This document shows positions 18,489 to 25,068 of a DNA stretch of 57,469 nucleotides, piece after piece. Within the stretch, counting starts at the first letter, position 1, and each line of letters opens with the position of its first letter. The translations under genes were made by a program, and so were the position numbers. Source of the DNA: Methanofastidiosum sp. (GTDB lineage Archaea > Methanobacteriota_B > Thermococci > Methanofastidiosales > Methanofastidiosaceae); NCBI GenBank assembly GCA_013178285.1, contig JABLXD010000011.1, positions 1 to 57,469 on the forward strand, given 5' to 3'. Below the pieces are notes generated by a model, which did no database searches, was not told the origin of the DNA, and saw only the letters and a list, made by a program, of their open reading frames with translations.

Positions 18489-18785
18489 GGATTAGTAAAA
18501 GTCTATGGAAATATAAAGATTTGTTTCATTGAATCTATGAAACTATATAAATTCTCAAACATAGGGTAAATTTTAGATGAAGATAAACTCCTCTTAATCA
18601 AAAAAGAAAGTAAATACAATGGGAAAATTCTTAGAAGTTTCGAAGATACTCACAGACACTTGAAGAATTCAAGAAGATGCTAGGGCTTGTTAAACTTTCA
18701 ATTCTAATCTTGAACTGAGAGCAGATGCGGGAACTTACTTATTATAAATTAAAAAAGAAAAACAGTATTTTATTTTTCTTTATAT
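18489..18785. other. Gap with possible decayed coding remnant
   Basis: This 297-base gap holds no intact gene. On the plus strand, 18575-18715 can be read as a short broken protein segment (DKLLLIKKESKYNGKIL, then SFEDTH, then a shift into EEFKKMLGL). It has the feel of the tail of an AbrB-type antitoxin or another small protein with at least one frameshift. No promoter or complete reading frame supports expression. The reading as a remnant is tentative. Confidence 0.3.
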
Positions 18786-21281
18786 TTATTTGTTTTCATA
18801 ATTTCTAGTTATTCTTTCTGCGTCTTCTATAATTTGGATCCATATATCAGAATCAATATTTTCAGGTTTTTCTTTTAATTCTAATAGTTTACTAATTAGA
18901 TATATTTTTTTATTAACTAATACGTCATACGTATGCTTATCAATTCCTTTAAGATATCTTATTGAACCTCTTGAAATTGCTTGTATTACTCTCATAGCCT
19001 CTTTTTGAAACTCTTTAATTTCGTCAGTGCCATATCCCTCTATCGAAAAGTCTTCGGCTTTAGATATAGCAAGTTCTTCTATATCTTCAATTCCTTGTGC
19101 ATGCAGTATTCTAGCCATTTCTTTGTTAATTCCTTTGATCTTCGTAAGTGATTGCCAATCACTATTCTCACTTTTTCCAAATAATGCATCTCTTAATCTA
19201 AGTCTGAATTCTCTACCTATAGGATTCTTTGAAATAATATAATTAGGGGGAAAGAATATTCTTCCTACTAGGGAATCACTTTTATAATAATCTCTTGTAT
19301 ATGCAGCAACTGCTGTCACTATGTCACTATGTTCTTCTTTATAAAAAGACCCTTCTTCTCTCTTTAGGCCTTCTTCCACAACCTCTAATGTTTCAGCATT
19401 TGTAACAAAATTTGCTTTGAGTATGCCATAAATTGCACTTTCTACATCTAAAAAGTCTTTATCTGCACCTAAACACAATATGAAAATAACTGGAATCCCG
19501 GGGTCTACTTTTCCATTTTTTAGTTGTTTTCTAAATTTTCCCATTAAGATATTTTTAGTTTTTCTTCCAGGAATGCAACTTATTTGACCTGAAACTTTGA
19601 ACTCAAGTAATTCTTCAACTGTTGCAACTTCAATCAAAGCTGACTGCCCATTATATTCTATTTTGGCTTCAAGCTTACTGCGCCCAAACTCTTTGATGTC
19701 AGGCTCTTTATTAATTTTAAAAGTTGGTGCCAATCTAGAAAATACCTCTGCTTCAGCAAGAATAAATCTTGCATTTTCTATATCCTGTAATTTTTTTATA
19801 TTTATCTCAATTTTATACCTATCCAGAATCTTAAATACTCGTTCCCAATAGAGTTGATATACATTATTCTTTGATTCACTACTATAAATGTGGGCTAATA
19901 AGTGCGGTTTTTTTGAAGTTGCATTTCTTATGAGCCAATCCTTTCCTATAGCTTTACAAATATAAGGATATTTTTCCAAATTTTTTTTCAGAGTGTCAAC
20001 GTTGATTCTCGGGAGAGGATATAAGATGTGATTAATGACTTCAAGTGCTTTCAAAGTGTCTTCTTTATATTTTGCCCCTTCATTGTGATCCTTTCCAAGA
20101 TTTATATTCTTTGTTATATCTTCATAATCCAAGCCTTTATTTACTCCAAATTCTCTAACTAGGGATATTGCCCTATTTCTTATATCTGAAGGATTATAAT
20201 TTATTAAATCTGTTAAAATATCCTGTAAAAGCCTAAGGACAACACTTTCTTTTCTCTCGTCCCCTTTCCATTTTTCACACCATTCTATTGAATCTTGTCC
20301 TGAACCTAAAAAATCATTTAGTTCCCTTTCTCCAAAGTAAATCATCCTAGAATTGTTTTTGTCGATTTCTTCCTCAAACATTCTAATAACAGGAGTTACG
20401 CCGACTTCCTTTATTTTTAATTTTAGCATTTCATTTGCAAGGGTATACCTTGATTTTTCATTTAATCTTGTTCGTAATCGATCCACGACAAATTTAGAAT
20501 CCCCTTTATAGATAAGTCCAAGAGCGTCATCAATGAAAGGATGATTTTTGTATTCCCTTTCAATTATAATTACAGCTTTTTTTATTAGCTCAATAGGAAA
20601 TCCTTCTCTGAATCGAATATAATTAATAAAAGAGAGGGCAGTATTACAATCTGCATTTTCAATTTCTTTTTGTAGAACAATCAAAGCAGATTCATCATTT
20701 AATAAATTGATTCCTTTAACTAAACAATAAATTAAGATGTCTTTATTTTCTTGATGTACATTCTCTACATTATCAATAATATTAGGAAAGAATATTTTGA
20801 ATTTGTCTAAATCAGAACTACATATTGCAACTAAAGAATTTCTCTGTAGAATACAATCTTCTGATACCAAGTTAGTCGTAACTTCTTTATCTAGAATTCC
20901 TTCTCCAAGTAGCATAGAAGTTATAATGCCCGAACATACTCCTGGACTTCTTCCCATATTTTGCATCTTTTTTATAATTTCACAAGTTATCTCATAGTTT
21001 CTTAGTGCAATTACCTTAATGGGATTGATAATTCTATTTATCATATAGTCACATATATTTTCTTCAATGAGTTCGATTAGAATTTTTATAAAAGAATCAT
21101 TCGTTGAATATAATCTATCAATAAGATGGATAAGGGCAATTTTATAAAAAAATATACTTTCTTTAACTATTGAATCAAGAATTCCCAATAATTCATCATC
21201 TGATTTATCTTCAAGATATTTTTTAATTCCATCGTCATCTTTATGTAAACATAAATTATGGAGTATTTCAAGAGATTCCAT
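18786..21281 (-). CDS. Large unknown protein: helical repeats, nuclease-like core, helix-hairpin-helix tail
   Basis: I do not recognise this 831-residue protein as a named family. Residues 1-430 are alpha-helical and look like HEAT/ARM-type repeats. Residues about 500-620 alternate strands and helices (AEAEVFSRL, EPDIKEF, then SALIEVATVE), an arrangement like PD-(D/E)XK nucleases, but the position of the usual catalytic lysine after E-V is alanine (A553). Residues 710-770 (LTKIKGINKEMARIL to VIQAI) are a RadA-type helix-hairpin-helix, with a second likely copy at 776-825. Such tails bind DNA. There is no signal peptide or membrane segment. The gene is AT-rich, has no operon partner, and a fragment related to its residues 430-455 lies on the opposite strand at 21367-21708. 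A DNA-binding, possibly nuclease-like or defence role is inference only. Confidence 0.65.
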   Translation of the reverse strand: MESLEILHNLCLHKDDDGIKKYLEDKSDDELLGILDSIVKESIFFYKIALIHLIDRLYSTNDSFIKILIELIEENICDYMINRIINPIKVIALRNYEITCEIIKKMQNMGRSPGVCSGIITSMLLGEGILDKEVTTNLVSEDCILQRNSLVAICSSDLDKFKIFFPNIIDNVENVHQENKDILIYCLVKGINLLNDESALIVLQKEIENADCNTALSFINYIRFREGFPIELIKKAVIIIEREYKNHPFIDDALGLIYKGDSKFVVDRLRTRLNEKSRYTLANEMLKLKIKEVGVTPVIRMFEEEIDKNNSRMIYFGERELNDFLGSGQDSIEWCEKWKGDERKESVVLRLLQDILTDLINYNPSDIRNRAISLVREFGVNKGLDYEDITKNINLGKDHNEGAKYKEDTLKALEVINHILYPLPRINVDTLKKNLEKYPYICKAIGKDWLIRNATSKKPHLLAHIYSSESKNNVYQLYWERVFKILDRYKIEINIKKLQDIENARFILAEAEVFSRLAPTFKINKEPDIKEFGRSKLEAKIEYNGQSALIEVATVEELLEFKVSGQISCIPGRKTKNILMGKFRKQLKNGKVDPGIPVIFILCLGADKDFLDVESAIYGILKANFVTNAETLEVVEEGLKREEGSFYKEEHSDIVTAVAAYTRDYYKSDSLVGRIFFPPNYIISKNPIGREFRLRLRDALFGKSENSDWQSLTKIKGINKEMARILHAQGIEDIEELAISKAEDFSIEGYGTDEIKEFQKEAMRVIQAISRGSIRYLKGIDKHTYDVLVNKKIYLISKLLELKEKPENIDSDIWIQIIEDAERITRNYENK

Positions 21282-21366
21282 AAATTAACAAGCATATCCT
21301 GATTAATAATATTTTGTATTTATAATTTTAGTAAAATCCGAAGAGAAGAAATAGAGTCTTCAGAAT

Positions 21367-21708
21367 TTGAAAAATATATTTAGGAGGCTAAAAAAGACAT
21401 TGAGGATGAAATTATTATATTTGTATTTAAAAAAGAGGGAAGCTAATATTAGTTCATTCTTTGAATTGATTGCCACATTTATGAAAAAATGGAATATACT
21501 CATTCTAGGAAATAACATGGAATCTATTTTAATTAACGAAAAAGAAAGATATACTTTCTTAAAACTTATTCTCAAACAAAATTTGGAAAAATATCCTCAT
21601 GTCAGTGAAGCTATAGGAAAGGATTGGCTTGAAGAACTGGCTATGTATACAGATCTTACATTAAGAGCTATGGTACTTGTAATTATTAAGAATGCTTTGG
21701 ACATATAA
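21367..21708 (+). pseudogene. Fragment related to the neighbouring 831-residue protein
   Basis: The 113-codon frame has near its end LKQNLEKYPHVSEAIGKDWL, which closely matches LKKNLEKYPYICKAIGKDWL at residues 431-450 of the protein encoded on the minus strand at 18786-21281. Similarity fades on both sides, and the upstream sequence carries stops in all frames. There is no good ribosome binding site. This is best read as the remnant of a second, inverted copy of that gene. It shows that the family has been duplicated or has moved at this locus. Confidence 0.55.
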
Positions 21709-21723
21709 ATATCTAAGGATAGA

Positions 21724-22998
21724 TTAATCAATTTTTGTTAAATAAGCTTCAATTAATTTTTTACCTTCTTGTTCTTCCATATCAAAATTAGATTTAATCA
21801 AAAAGAAATTAGAGTTTGGAGATTTAATAGTAAACGTATATATAAGTTCATTGAACATATTTGCAAAAAAATAAATAATATTAGAGAAATTATTTGGAAT
21901 ATCTTTTTCTTTATGGATTTTCATTAGAAAATCATATATTTCAAAATTAGTTGGAATTTGCCAACTTGACATTTGTGTTTCAATATTATTAATGAATTTA
22001 TTTAGGTCAAAATATCTAATGTCATTCGTTAAAAATACAATAGCAAATTTTTGAAATAGCTTACAATATTCACTGCCAAATATTTCTTCATCATATTCAA
22101 GATTATATTCTTGGAAGATTTTACCTGAATAAACGTCCTTTACAAAGTTTTGAGGGAATATAACCCCCTTGAAAGCGTATTTCTCGGAAATTTTATATTC
22201 AGATGCTCGTTCATTAAGATAATAAGAATAAAATTCCTTTCTTTCTTTCAGGCTTACTTGATGTTGAAATAGCTCTTCTGTAAATCCTATGAAGTCCATA
22301 AAAAAACCATCGACATCTTTATCTATTTCTTCAAGTTCAATATCCAAAGGCTTATTATCAAATATTTTCCGGAAAAGCTCCCTGTTTTTTAAGTCAAAAT
22401 AAAATTCATTTATATTGTACCAATAACTGAATGAATAATCTGAATTTATAAACATAAAACTGCATTTACTAATCTTTGAATTATTTATTTCTATGTAATT
22501 TTTTTGAGTATATACAACATCGGCCATATATTTTTTCATTAACTCGTTTAACTCATGTACTTTCCTAAAGAATAATGCTTTATTTTGAAAAAATTCTACT
22601 AATTTATTATAATCTAAATCAGAATATTTATATTGACTTAGTTTGTTAATTTCTATCCAATCTTCTATTTTAATAATTGGATCATAACCTTTATTAATAA
22701 AAAATTCATGACTTGATTTTAATAAATAAAAATATTTACAAAAGTCTTCATCCATATTTTTTATATATTTGGGGATAGTACCTTCCTCTTTTTGAAATTC
22801 GCCATTTTCTAAAGAATCTAATATTTTGTTAAGCTTACTTCGCATAAGTTTGTCATGTTTATTAAAAAGTTCTTTTTCTTTTATATTATCATGAGCTTTT
22901 GTGAGATATTTAAGTAGAGGTATATCTTTTGTTACTTCTTTGATAGTTTCTTTTGATAGGTCTTTCGTTTTTTTCGTTATGTCTTTCTTCTTTACCAT
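21724..22998 (-). CDS. Unknown protein in the AT-rich patch
   Basis: A 424-residue protein that I cannot assign. The first 60 residues are lysine-rich and helical (KKTKDLSKETIKEVTKD). The remainder is rich in aromatic residues, Asn, Ile, Glu and Lys, mostly helical, without signal peptide, membrane segment or a clear catalytic motif. Base composition is even more AT-rich than its neighbours. It lies between the broken paralogue fragment and tRNA-Tyr, transcribed alone, with a TATA-like TAAATATAAAG about 40 bases upstream. It may be cargo of an integrated element or a defence gene, but nothing in the sequence proves that. Confidence 0.6.
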   Translation of the reverse strand: MVKKKDITKKTKDLSKETIKEVTKDIPLLKYLTKAHDNIKEKELFNKHDKLMRSKLNKILDSLENGEFQKEEGTIPKYIKNMDEDFCKYFYLLKSSHEFFINKGYDPIIKIEDWIEINKLSQYKYSDLDYNKLVEFFQNKALFFRKVHELNELMKKYMADVVYTQKNYIEINNSKISKCSFMFINSDYSFSYWYNINEFYFDLKNRELFRKIFDNKPLDIELEEIDKDVDGFFMDFIGFTEELFQHQVSLKERKEFYSYYLNERASEYKISEKYAFKGVIFPQNFVKDVYSGKIFQEYNLEYDEEIFGSEYCKLFQKFAIVFLTNDIRYFDLNKFINNIETQMSSWQIPTNFEIYDFLMKIHKEKDIPNNFSNIIYFFANMFNELIYTFTIKSPNSNFFLIKSNFDMEEQEGKKLIEAYLTKID

Positions 22999-23163
22999 TT
23001 AGAATAAAAAACATTTTGTTACTTTATATTTATTACTATACTAGAGAAATTCTGTTTTTCTCTTTTTGAATTAGTTTAGCATAATTAAAATTATAAGATT
23101 AGTGATATTAGTATAATTAGAAATAACATAAATACATCCAAGGGATTTCTAATTGAAAAAAAG

Positions 23164-23238
23164 TCCCGGCGGCCGGATTTGAACCAGCGATCCGTGGATC
23201 TACAGTCCACTGCCCTAACCAGACTAGGCCACGCCGGG
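23164..23238 (-). tRNA. tRNA-Tyr (anticodon GTA)
   Basis: Cloverleaf on the minus strand: acceptor CCCGGCG/CGCCGGG; anticodon stem GTGGA/TCCAC with loop CTGTAGA, giving GTA for Tyr; a variable region GGATC; T stem GCTGG/CCGGC with loop TTCAAAT; discriminator A. No intron. Its 3' end faces the AT-rich accessory patch at 18.5-23.1 kb, the side on which integrating elements usually insert. Confidence 0.95.
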
Positions 23239-23280: not shown

Positions 23281-25068
23281 TCATGAATAATATGTGCCAT
23301 AGAATCTTTTGATTTCTTTGGCGGATGGCAATACAATTTCATCCCAGACACCAATGAAATCTTCTAGATTCTTATAGTTCCTTTGAGATGCAAATATCTT
23401 GTGGAGGAAATCTTTTCTTTCCTTAATATCAATCTTAACAAATTCTACGTAATCGTGGGGGGAGTAGTAATTGAGGGGATTAAATCTCTCGCCAAAGTTT
23501 TTCATTCCGTGAACTTCACTTAGCTCTTTAGGTGATGGAACCAAATAACCATAGGCAGGATCCTTTATCCAGTTTTTAATAAGTCCATGGGTACAAAGTC
23601 TAAGCAGCGTCTTTGAATCAGAAACTGTTATTTTTTCTCCACCTATTGATTTTCCACTAAGATCAAATTCCCCAACAAAACCAGTATTAATTATCAAGAA
23701 GTTGATTTTTCCATCTTGACCAAGCCCCATATCAGTAAAAACTTTCTTTTTTAGTACGGCCTGCTCAGCCTGCTCTCTTGCCATAAAGTCAGTAGCAGAA
23801 TAAGACCTTACTCTAGTTCCAGGAACCTTGCCGGATACTGCTGAAGTAATTATACTCTCACAGCCGCTATCAAATGCAACGGCCATTAGAGGATTAGTAA
23901 CTTTTATGACTGGATTGAAAATGTCATATCTTTTAAAACTCAAAACAAAGTTTCTTAAGTATTTGTCTGTCTTAGCCCAAGACGAGTTCAAATCGCTGAA
24001 GAGAAAAATAAATCTGCCATTTGTCGTTCTACTCTTTTCATAACTCTTGCATAGTAATGAACCTATGTCACCAGAAGATACTGGTATTTCAACATCATAT
24101 CCATTGATGTTTTTCTTAACGTAATCTACGCCTTCACAATCAATGTTCATCGCTAAAACTATATGCTTTCTATCCTTTGATTTCATCAAACCTGGGTACT
24201 CTGGGCTTTTTTCAGAAAGTCCTTCAGATTTTGCAAAGCTTGCGGCTTCAAGGCCAACTAACTTTACATCAACAATTTTATCATCCTTTGTAATTACTTT
24301 TCCCAAAACTGCATCATCCTGTTCAAGATATGGGCCAACTGTTAGTGTAGTCTTTCCTGTGCCGCTTAACCCAATAATTACAGAGCTCTCTGAAAGTCCT
24401 GCATGGAAGGAGATCATATTGTCGGATTCTCCCTTGTTCCATACCATAGTCAGATTGGGTTTTTTGAAAGCCCCGCCAAAATAGTCAATTCCAAGATTTA
24501 TAACACGCCTGATGTCATTTTCCATCTCGGTAAAATCGTAAAGAGACAGTGGCTCGTTCTCATTATAGTCAGGCCAGACCTTTTTCATCTGGCTAGTGTA
24601 TTTTTCAGGAAGTTTTTCAGGTATTATGAAATTATAGCAACTTGGTTTAACTTCTTCCTTTGGAGGGAATACCATCATCTTTCCCATCCAGGAGATATAT
24701 GCACTATGGGGATTTTCTACACTTACAACAGACCTTATCCCAACTTCATAGCCATTTTCTCCCTGAACACCATCCGCTACTAGGACTTGAGGGATTTCTC
24801 TCAAATATTCCATTATTATCTTATAGATTTCTTTCCCAACATCAATATCAAAGCCTTTTTGACCAGCCCCAAGCTTGTAGCCTTTTGGAACCATGTAGTA
24901 AACTTTATCGGGCCTTCTACCTTTTTGTGTAGATGCAAAAAGATACTGGCCGTCTTTTGTAACAACATAATATGGCTTTAGATAGTTAATGTAAAAATCG
25001 TCAGAGGGATTCAAAAAAATTCTCTCTTTTGGAAGGATAAGACTCTCAGAAACATTAAAACTACTCAT
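23281..25068 (-). CDS. pckA: Phosphoenolpyruvate carboxykinase (ATP type), diverged
   Basis: ATP-type PEP carboxykinases interconvert oxaloacetate and phosphoenolpyruvate. The kinase P-loop GLSGTGKTTL is at residues 233-242, exactly the ATP-PEPCK form. FGGAFKK near 197 corresponds to the metal/substrate YAGEMKK motif, and SFAKSEGLSEKSPE near 277 to the segment after kinase motif 2. At 595 residues it is longer than the usual 530 or so, and several signature residues have changed, including the EGGCYAK segment, here VGLEAASFAK. It could be an ATP-dependent carboxykinase of an archaeal subfamily or a kinase with altered substrate. Transcribed alone or with the DHH gene upstream, with a nine-base gap. 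Confidence 0.75.
   Translation of the reverse strand: MSSFNVSESLILPKERIFLNPSDDFYINYLKPYYVVTKDGQYLFASTQKGRRPDKVYYMVPKGYKLGAGQKGFDIDVGKEIYKIIMEYLREIPQVLVADGVQGENGYEVGIRSVVSVENPHSAYISWMGKMMVFPPKEEVKPSCYNFIIPEKLPEKYTSQMKKVWPDYNENEPLSLYDFTEMENDIRRVINLGIDYFGGAFKKPNLTMVWNKGESDNMISFHAGLSESSVIIGLSGTGKTTLTVGPYLEQDDAVLGKVITKDDKIVDVKLVGLEAASFAKSEGLSEKSPEYPGLMKSKDRKHIVLAMNIDCEGVDYVKKNINGYDVEIPVSSGDIGSLLCKSYEKSRTTNGRFIFLFSDLNSSWAKTDKYLRNFVLSFKRYDIFNPVIKVTNPLMAVAFDSGCESIITSAVSGKVPGTRVRSYSATDFMAREQAEQAVLKKKVFTDMGLGQDGKINFLIINTGFVGEFDLSGKSIGGEKITVSDSKTLLRLCTHGLIKNWIKDPAYGYLVPSPKELSEVHGMKNFGERFNPLNYYSPHDYVEFVKIDIKERKDFLHKIFASQRNYKNLEDFIGVWDEIVLPSAKEIKRFYGTYYS

Follow-up and report, generated by a model that had tools for sequence, protein, structure and literature searches.

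A predicted helical-repeat protein with a putative Bax1-like nuclease core encoded in an AT-rich island at tRNA-Tyr of Methanofastidiosum

The window analysed here is the whole stretch of 57,469 nucleotides from Methanofastidiosum sp., an archaeal source genome as indicated by the genes for fibrillarin and topoisomerase VI in the window. An AT-rich insertion is located between an MFS gene and the gene for tRNA-Tyr (Table 1), with a G+C content of 0.24-0.32 in most 1-kb intervals, compared with mostly 0.34-0.40 in the surrounding DNA. The distance from the MFS gene to tRNA-Tyr is 4.7 kb in this genome and approximately 0.4 kb at the empty sites of two congeners (G007 and G006); accordingly, about 4.3 kb are extra here. 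The insertion lies 3' of tRNA-Tyr and carries the genes of the orphan P0004 and of P0001, the protein examined in this study, whose island neighbours are P0004, the MFS gene and tRNA-Tyr. The gene of P0001 is an uninterrupted frame of 831 codons with an ATG start that occupies exactly positions 18786-21281 of the minus strand, as stated in a preliminary description of this DNA, and the plus strand of this region is interrupted by stop codons throughout and has no long frame.

Table 1. Features of the tRNA-Tyr island and of P0001 (positions of the window)
Feature	Position	Strand	Basis
AT-rich insertion between MFS gene and tRNA-Tyr	18489..23162		G+C content; size compared with congeners
P0001, 831-aa protein	18786..21281	minus	ATG-to-stop open frame; colinear relative on pNP174
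Residues 1-440, helical-repeat (alpha-solenoid-like) region	19962..21281	minus	all-helix prediction of low confidence; homology to P0002
Core segment, residues 498-602	19476..19790	minus	order of secondary structure; homology to P0002; marginal in-register Bax1 match
E510, putative motif I acid, first core helix	19752..19754	minus	E494 in P0002
E538, putative motif II acid	19668..19670	minus	D526 in P0002; PD in Bax1
E551-V-A553, putative motif III, Ala replacing Lys	19623..19631	minus	E-I-A in P0002; E-I-A/V in Bax1
K582 to Q586, next helix, candidate relocated lysine	19524..19538	minus	same K and Q in P0002; PMC1913061
Helix-hairpin-helix, residues 711-745	19047..19151	minus	HHH_5 and TIGR03491 profiles
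Claimed second helix-hairpin-helix, residues 776-800, unsupported	18882..18956	minus	no profile; shuffle test
P0004, 424-aa orphan upstream of P0001, same orientation	21724..22998	minus	no family or relative
tRNA-Tyr, right border of insertion	23163..23238	minus	empty sites in L020 and L021

The sole relative of P0001 that was found is the hypothetical protein WP_323737617.1 (P0002) of 676 amino acids, encoded by the megaplasmid pNP174 of Methanosphaera sp. ISO3-F5. The two proteins share 23% identity (tblastn E value 1e-8) and are colinear over residues 16-620 of P0001; the helical region (score 208, shuffles 53 +/- 8) and the core (score 110, shuffles 37 +/- 6) are each homologous by themselves. 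The search covered 115 genomes of one phylum including the source genome, and no relative was detected in the other 114 genomes or among the phages searched. Scans of the genome and viral contigs with peptide patterns derived from P0001, P0002 and their alignment likewise yielded no relative, although such scans detect close relatives only and miss homologues of only about 25% identity. Weak matches to a Dipodfec virus Rep protein, to a 116-aa protein of Paraburkholderia and to sequences in the genomes of class-mates (30% over 80 residues) were rejected as chance or too short. In contrast to P0001, with its upstream orphan, P0002 is encoded directly upstream of a gene (L005:10005-11354) for a protein with an N-terminal zinc ribbon and a C-terminal RNEYVH (HEPN-like) motif, and a Schlafen-group-3 helicase is encoded two genes beyond. 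The zinc-ribbon protein matched no HEPN profile and no convincing family beyond the zinc ribbon.

The alignment of the two core segments revealed a set of putative active-site residues common to both proteins. E510, the acidic residue 538 (Glu in P0001 and Asp in P0002), E551, A553, K582 and Q586 align, and the acids of motifs I, II and III of PD-(D/E)XK nucleases occur in this order in P0001 and in its one relative. The core of P0001 reads EVATVEE, confirming that E551 is followed, after a valine, by an alanine (A553) at the position usually held by the catalytic lysine; the same position is Ala in P0002, and both proteins have the candidate lysine K582 on the following helix. The comparison of homologues proposed in the preliminary description as a check thus finds acids 510, 538 and 551 as well as K582 kept in one relative. 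A displaced catalytic residue is known from the families DUF790, DUF506 and DUF1626, in which the motif III lysine has migrated to the helix of motif IV (PMC1913061).

The nearest counterpart of this arrangement was found in Bax1/DUF790 (PF05626), the archaeal XPB-associated nuclease. In Bax1, the residues E275, D305 and E318 overlay the active site of VRR-Nuc; the protein cleaves DNA with these acids, and the D305A exchange lowers cutting by the nuclease domain (PMC7293015). The NUS domain of archaeal Bax1 proteins contains a Glu, a PD and, 13 residues past the Asp, the sequence E-I-A or E-I-V, with a Lys-rich following helix. The spacing of 13 residues between the acids of motifs II and III (538-551 in P0001) and the motif III pattern E-[IV]-[AV] are shared by P0001, P0002 and five Bax1 proteins. 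A profile generated from the two core sequences scored 24.3 against Bax1, which exceeds the scores of all 200 column shuffles (mean 14.6, maximum 24.1) and those obtained against ten unrelated families (9.4-20.3). Bax1 differs from P0001 in being shorter and in having no counterpart to the long helical region, and a gene for an XPB-type helicase, as read from sequence, adjoins Bax1 in two loci (L048 and L051), whereas none lies beside P0001. PF05626 did not match P0001 at E values up to 1 and has no place in its own genome; therefore, the core may be said to work like a Bax1-type core, but not to be a Bax1. Among the genomes examined for this family, Bax1/DUF790 was present in none of the ten genomes of the source genus and in five of 41 genomes overall, whereas XPF/Hef is nearly universal there.

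The secondary structure of P0001 was predicted with AlphaFold without homologues. The predicted local distance difference test (pLDDT) values were 39.0 for the whole protein and 36.5 for residues 470-705, and models of such low confidence prove no fold. A similar order of elements appeared in both models: the chain is helical up to residue 488 or so and continues with a helix (about 498-517), strands (near 521-525, 536-543 and 546-552) and another helix (about 573-588); a further strand (598-602) was present in the core run only. This order would fit PD-(D/E)XK enzymes, and a helical N-terminus and an alpha/beta core are plausible. The all-helix prediction agrees with the HEAT/ARM-like helices that had been assigned to residues 1-430, although the repeats are structurally unproven, and the structure prediction suggested earlier for the segment 500-620 gives an order of elements that would fit but does not confirm the nuclease fold.

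The C-terminal part of P0001 contains a helix-hairpin-helix (HhH) with weak but consistent profile support. HHH_5 matches residues 711-741 with E values of 4e-4 (whole protein) and 3.9e-5 (C-terminal piece), both weaker than the curated cut-off, and the HhH is matched with an E value of 6.6e-5 in a search of its own genome; region 207-265 of the TIGR03491 model (TM0106 family RecB-like nuclease) matches residues 705-762 (E value 4.7e-5); the similarity to this family is limited to the HhH stretch, with 22.5 bits compared with a cut-off of 97.45. The C-terminal repeat profile of NusA gave an E value of 0.022 with the tail, and its weak PDB matches were mostly NusA. The HhH proposed at residues 710-770 is therefore retained, but its type resembles NusA or TM0106 rather than RadA. 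A second HhH suggested at residues 776-825 was not borne out, with zero profile matches in a search of the C-terminal piece and a similarity to the first HhH that was equalled by 8% of shuffles. P0002 stops where the HhH tail of P0001 starts, so that the tail is modular. The tail is the only hint of DNA binding in P0001 and is lacking in P0002, and a role as a DNA-end or branch-binding factor is accordingly unsupported.

With respect to these comparisons, P0001 may represent a horizontally acquired accessory nuclease, probably related to defence or mobile elements, a reading to which we assign a probability of roughly 45%. The helical solenoid would recognize a nucleic acid or protein target, and the Bax1-like PD-(D/E)XK variant core would cleave a phosphodiester bond; its residues E510, E538 and E551 would hold the metal, and K582 of the following helix would take the place of the usual motif III lysine. 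The NusA-like HhH, either gained in the P0001 lineage or lost in P0002, could provide a non-specific grip on duplex DNA. A role in defence against foreign nucleic acid, or in the service of the carrier mobile element, rather than in housekeeping DNA repair, is suggested because of the sporadic distribution, the location on an island and the plasmid neighbours of P0002 (the HEPN-like protein and the Schlafen-group-3 helicase). The relocation of the catalytic residue, which had been considered in the preliminary description, is supported, marginally at the profile level, because the acids and K582/Q586 are kept in P0002 and Bax1 shares motif III and the spacing. The PD-(D/E)XK-like core as such is favoured by motif order and spacing, by conservation in one relative and by the marginal profile match to Bax1.

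Several observations weigh against an active nuclease of this kind. Hef scored 22.9 with the core profile, out of motif register, a value reached by one of 100 shuffles. P0001 alone scored at noise level against Bax1 (118 of 150 shuffles reached the score), and P0002 alone was weakly above its shuffles (7 of 150). Motif II of P0001 contains Glu instead of Asp, and with one relative only the conservation of K582 could be due to chance. The nuclease fold is unproven owing to the low confidence of the AlphaFold models, and no nuclease occurred among the fold-search matches. Moreover, neither an integrase nor a known partner gene is located on the island, and none of the proteins P0001 to P0004 matched a PADLOC model.

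Some of these data would also suit a catalytically dead nucleic-acid-binding protein, in which a restriction-like core serves as binding module behind a helical targeting region and the HhH adds a further DNA contact. This explanation is unlikely, but it has a model in the RAP proteins, which consist of helical repeats followed by a restriction-like domain (PMC8190603), and it would account for a motif III without Lys and a motif II with Glu. In addition, solenoid proteins, including the RNA-binding PPR and PUF proteins, made up most of the Foldseek matches of the all-helical whole-chain model, none of them significant. On the other hand, P0001 does not match the RAP domain model PF08373 and differs from RAP proteins by its HhH tail, and the three acids and K582/Q586 are kept at 23% identity, which a dead domain would not need.

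It is improbable that the core adopts a different alpha/beta fold and resembles PD-(D/E)XK enzymes by coincidence. The Foldseek search with the core model yielded many thioredoxin-like folds, no nuclease and no match at an E value below 0.001, and the failure of P0001 alone to exceed the shuffles against Bax1 points in the same direction; however, models at this confidence are uninformative, and both the conserved order and spacing of the motifs and the result of the two-sequence profile argue for a nuclease-like core.

The order nuclease and then HhH is common, as in XPF/Hef. It is nevertheless very improbable that P0001 is a nuclease like XPF/MUS81/Hef that acts structure-specifically in DNA repair or in the processing of branches, despite this shared order and the profile support for its HhH, as P0001 has no match to ERCC4 (PF02732) and no GDXnERKX3D motif at the core (a GDERK near residue 340 belongs to the helical region and is not conserved in P0002), a solenoid replaces the helicase, one HhH is supported where an (HhH)2 domain needs two, the gene is absent from congeners, P0002 lacks the HhH, and the genome already encodes a Hef with its own HhH (C13:32624).

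The remaining features of the locus concern the island and its surroundings. Searches with profiles and for relatives assigned P0004 to no family, a weak match in G008 was rejected as chance or too short, and a comparison of P0003 with P0004 indicated no relationship. As no repeat of the tRNA-Tyr 3' end was detected at the left border and no integrase was found, integrase-mediated insertion is unsupported. The tRNA-Tyr gene is a variable site in the genus (loci L018, L019 and L022), being flanked by a PrimPol-D5 protein of a kind typical of integrated elements in G002, by nitroreductase and PAS genes in G001 and by a weak transposase-like match in G009. A small open reading frame between P0001 and P0004 (21517-21708, plus strand) looks like a chimeric remnant: an inverted copy (60 bp, 88%) of the P0001 coding sequence at positions 19933-19992 makes up its first half, and the other half is similar to small proteins encoded at other places in the genus (L024-L026 and L028). 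The region 23281-25068 encodes a protein of 595 amino acids that matches PEPCK_ATP in part, over residues 36-288, and is kept beside tRNA-Tyr in congeners.

As judged from the sequences searched, the combination of parts in P0001 appears to be almost unique, with one distant relative, whereas the type of core is already known. The view that the arrangement was unfamiliar therefore holds for the whole chain, but not for its pairs, as a nuclease joined to an HhH and helical repeats joined to a restriction-like domain have both been described. It is rather unlikely, but conceivable, that P0001 and P0002 are the first members of a new effector family of archaeal mobile islands, which would act as a defence system outside the present catalogues and in which a helical sensor is combined with a Bax1-type nuclease with the lysine on the next helix, and with an HhH clamp in one lineage and a HEPN ribonuclease partner in the other. 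If active, P0001 would be a further restriction-like nuclease with its lysine on the next helix, in a layout unmatched by any family model searched and carried at a tRNA-Tyr insertion hotspot of a poorly known archaeal lineage. Its activity would then suggest that archaea possess further nucleases of defence or of mobile elements that are as yet undescribed.
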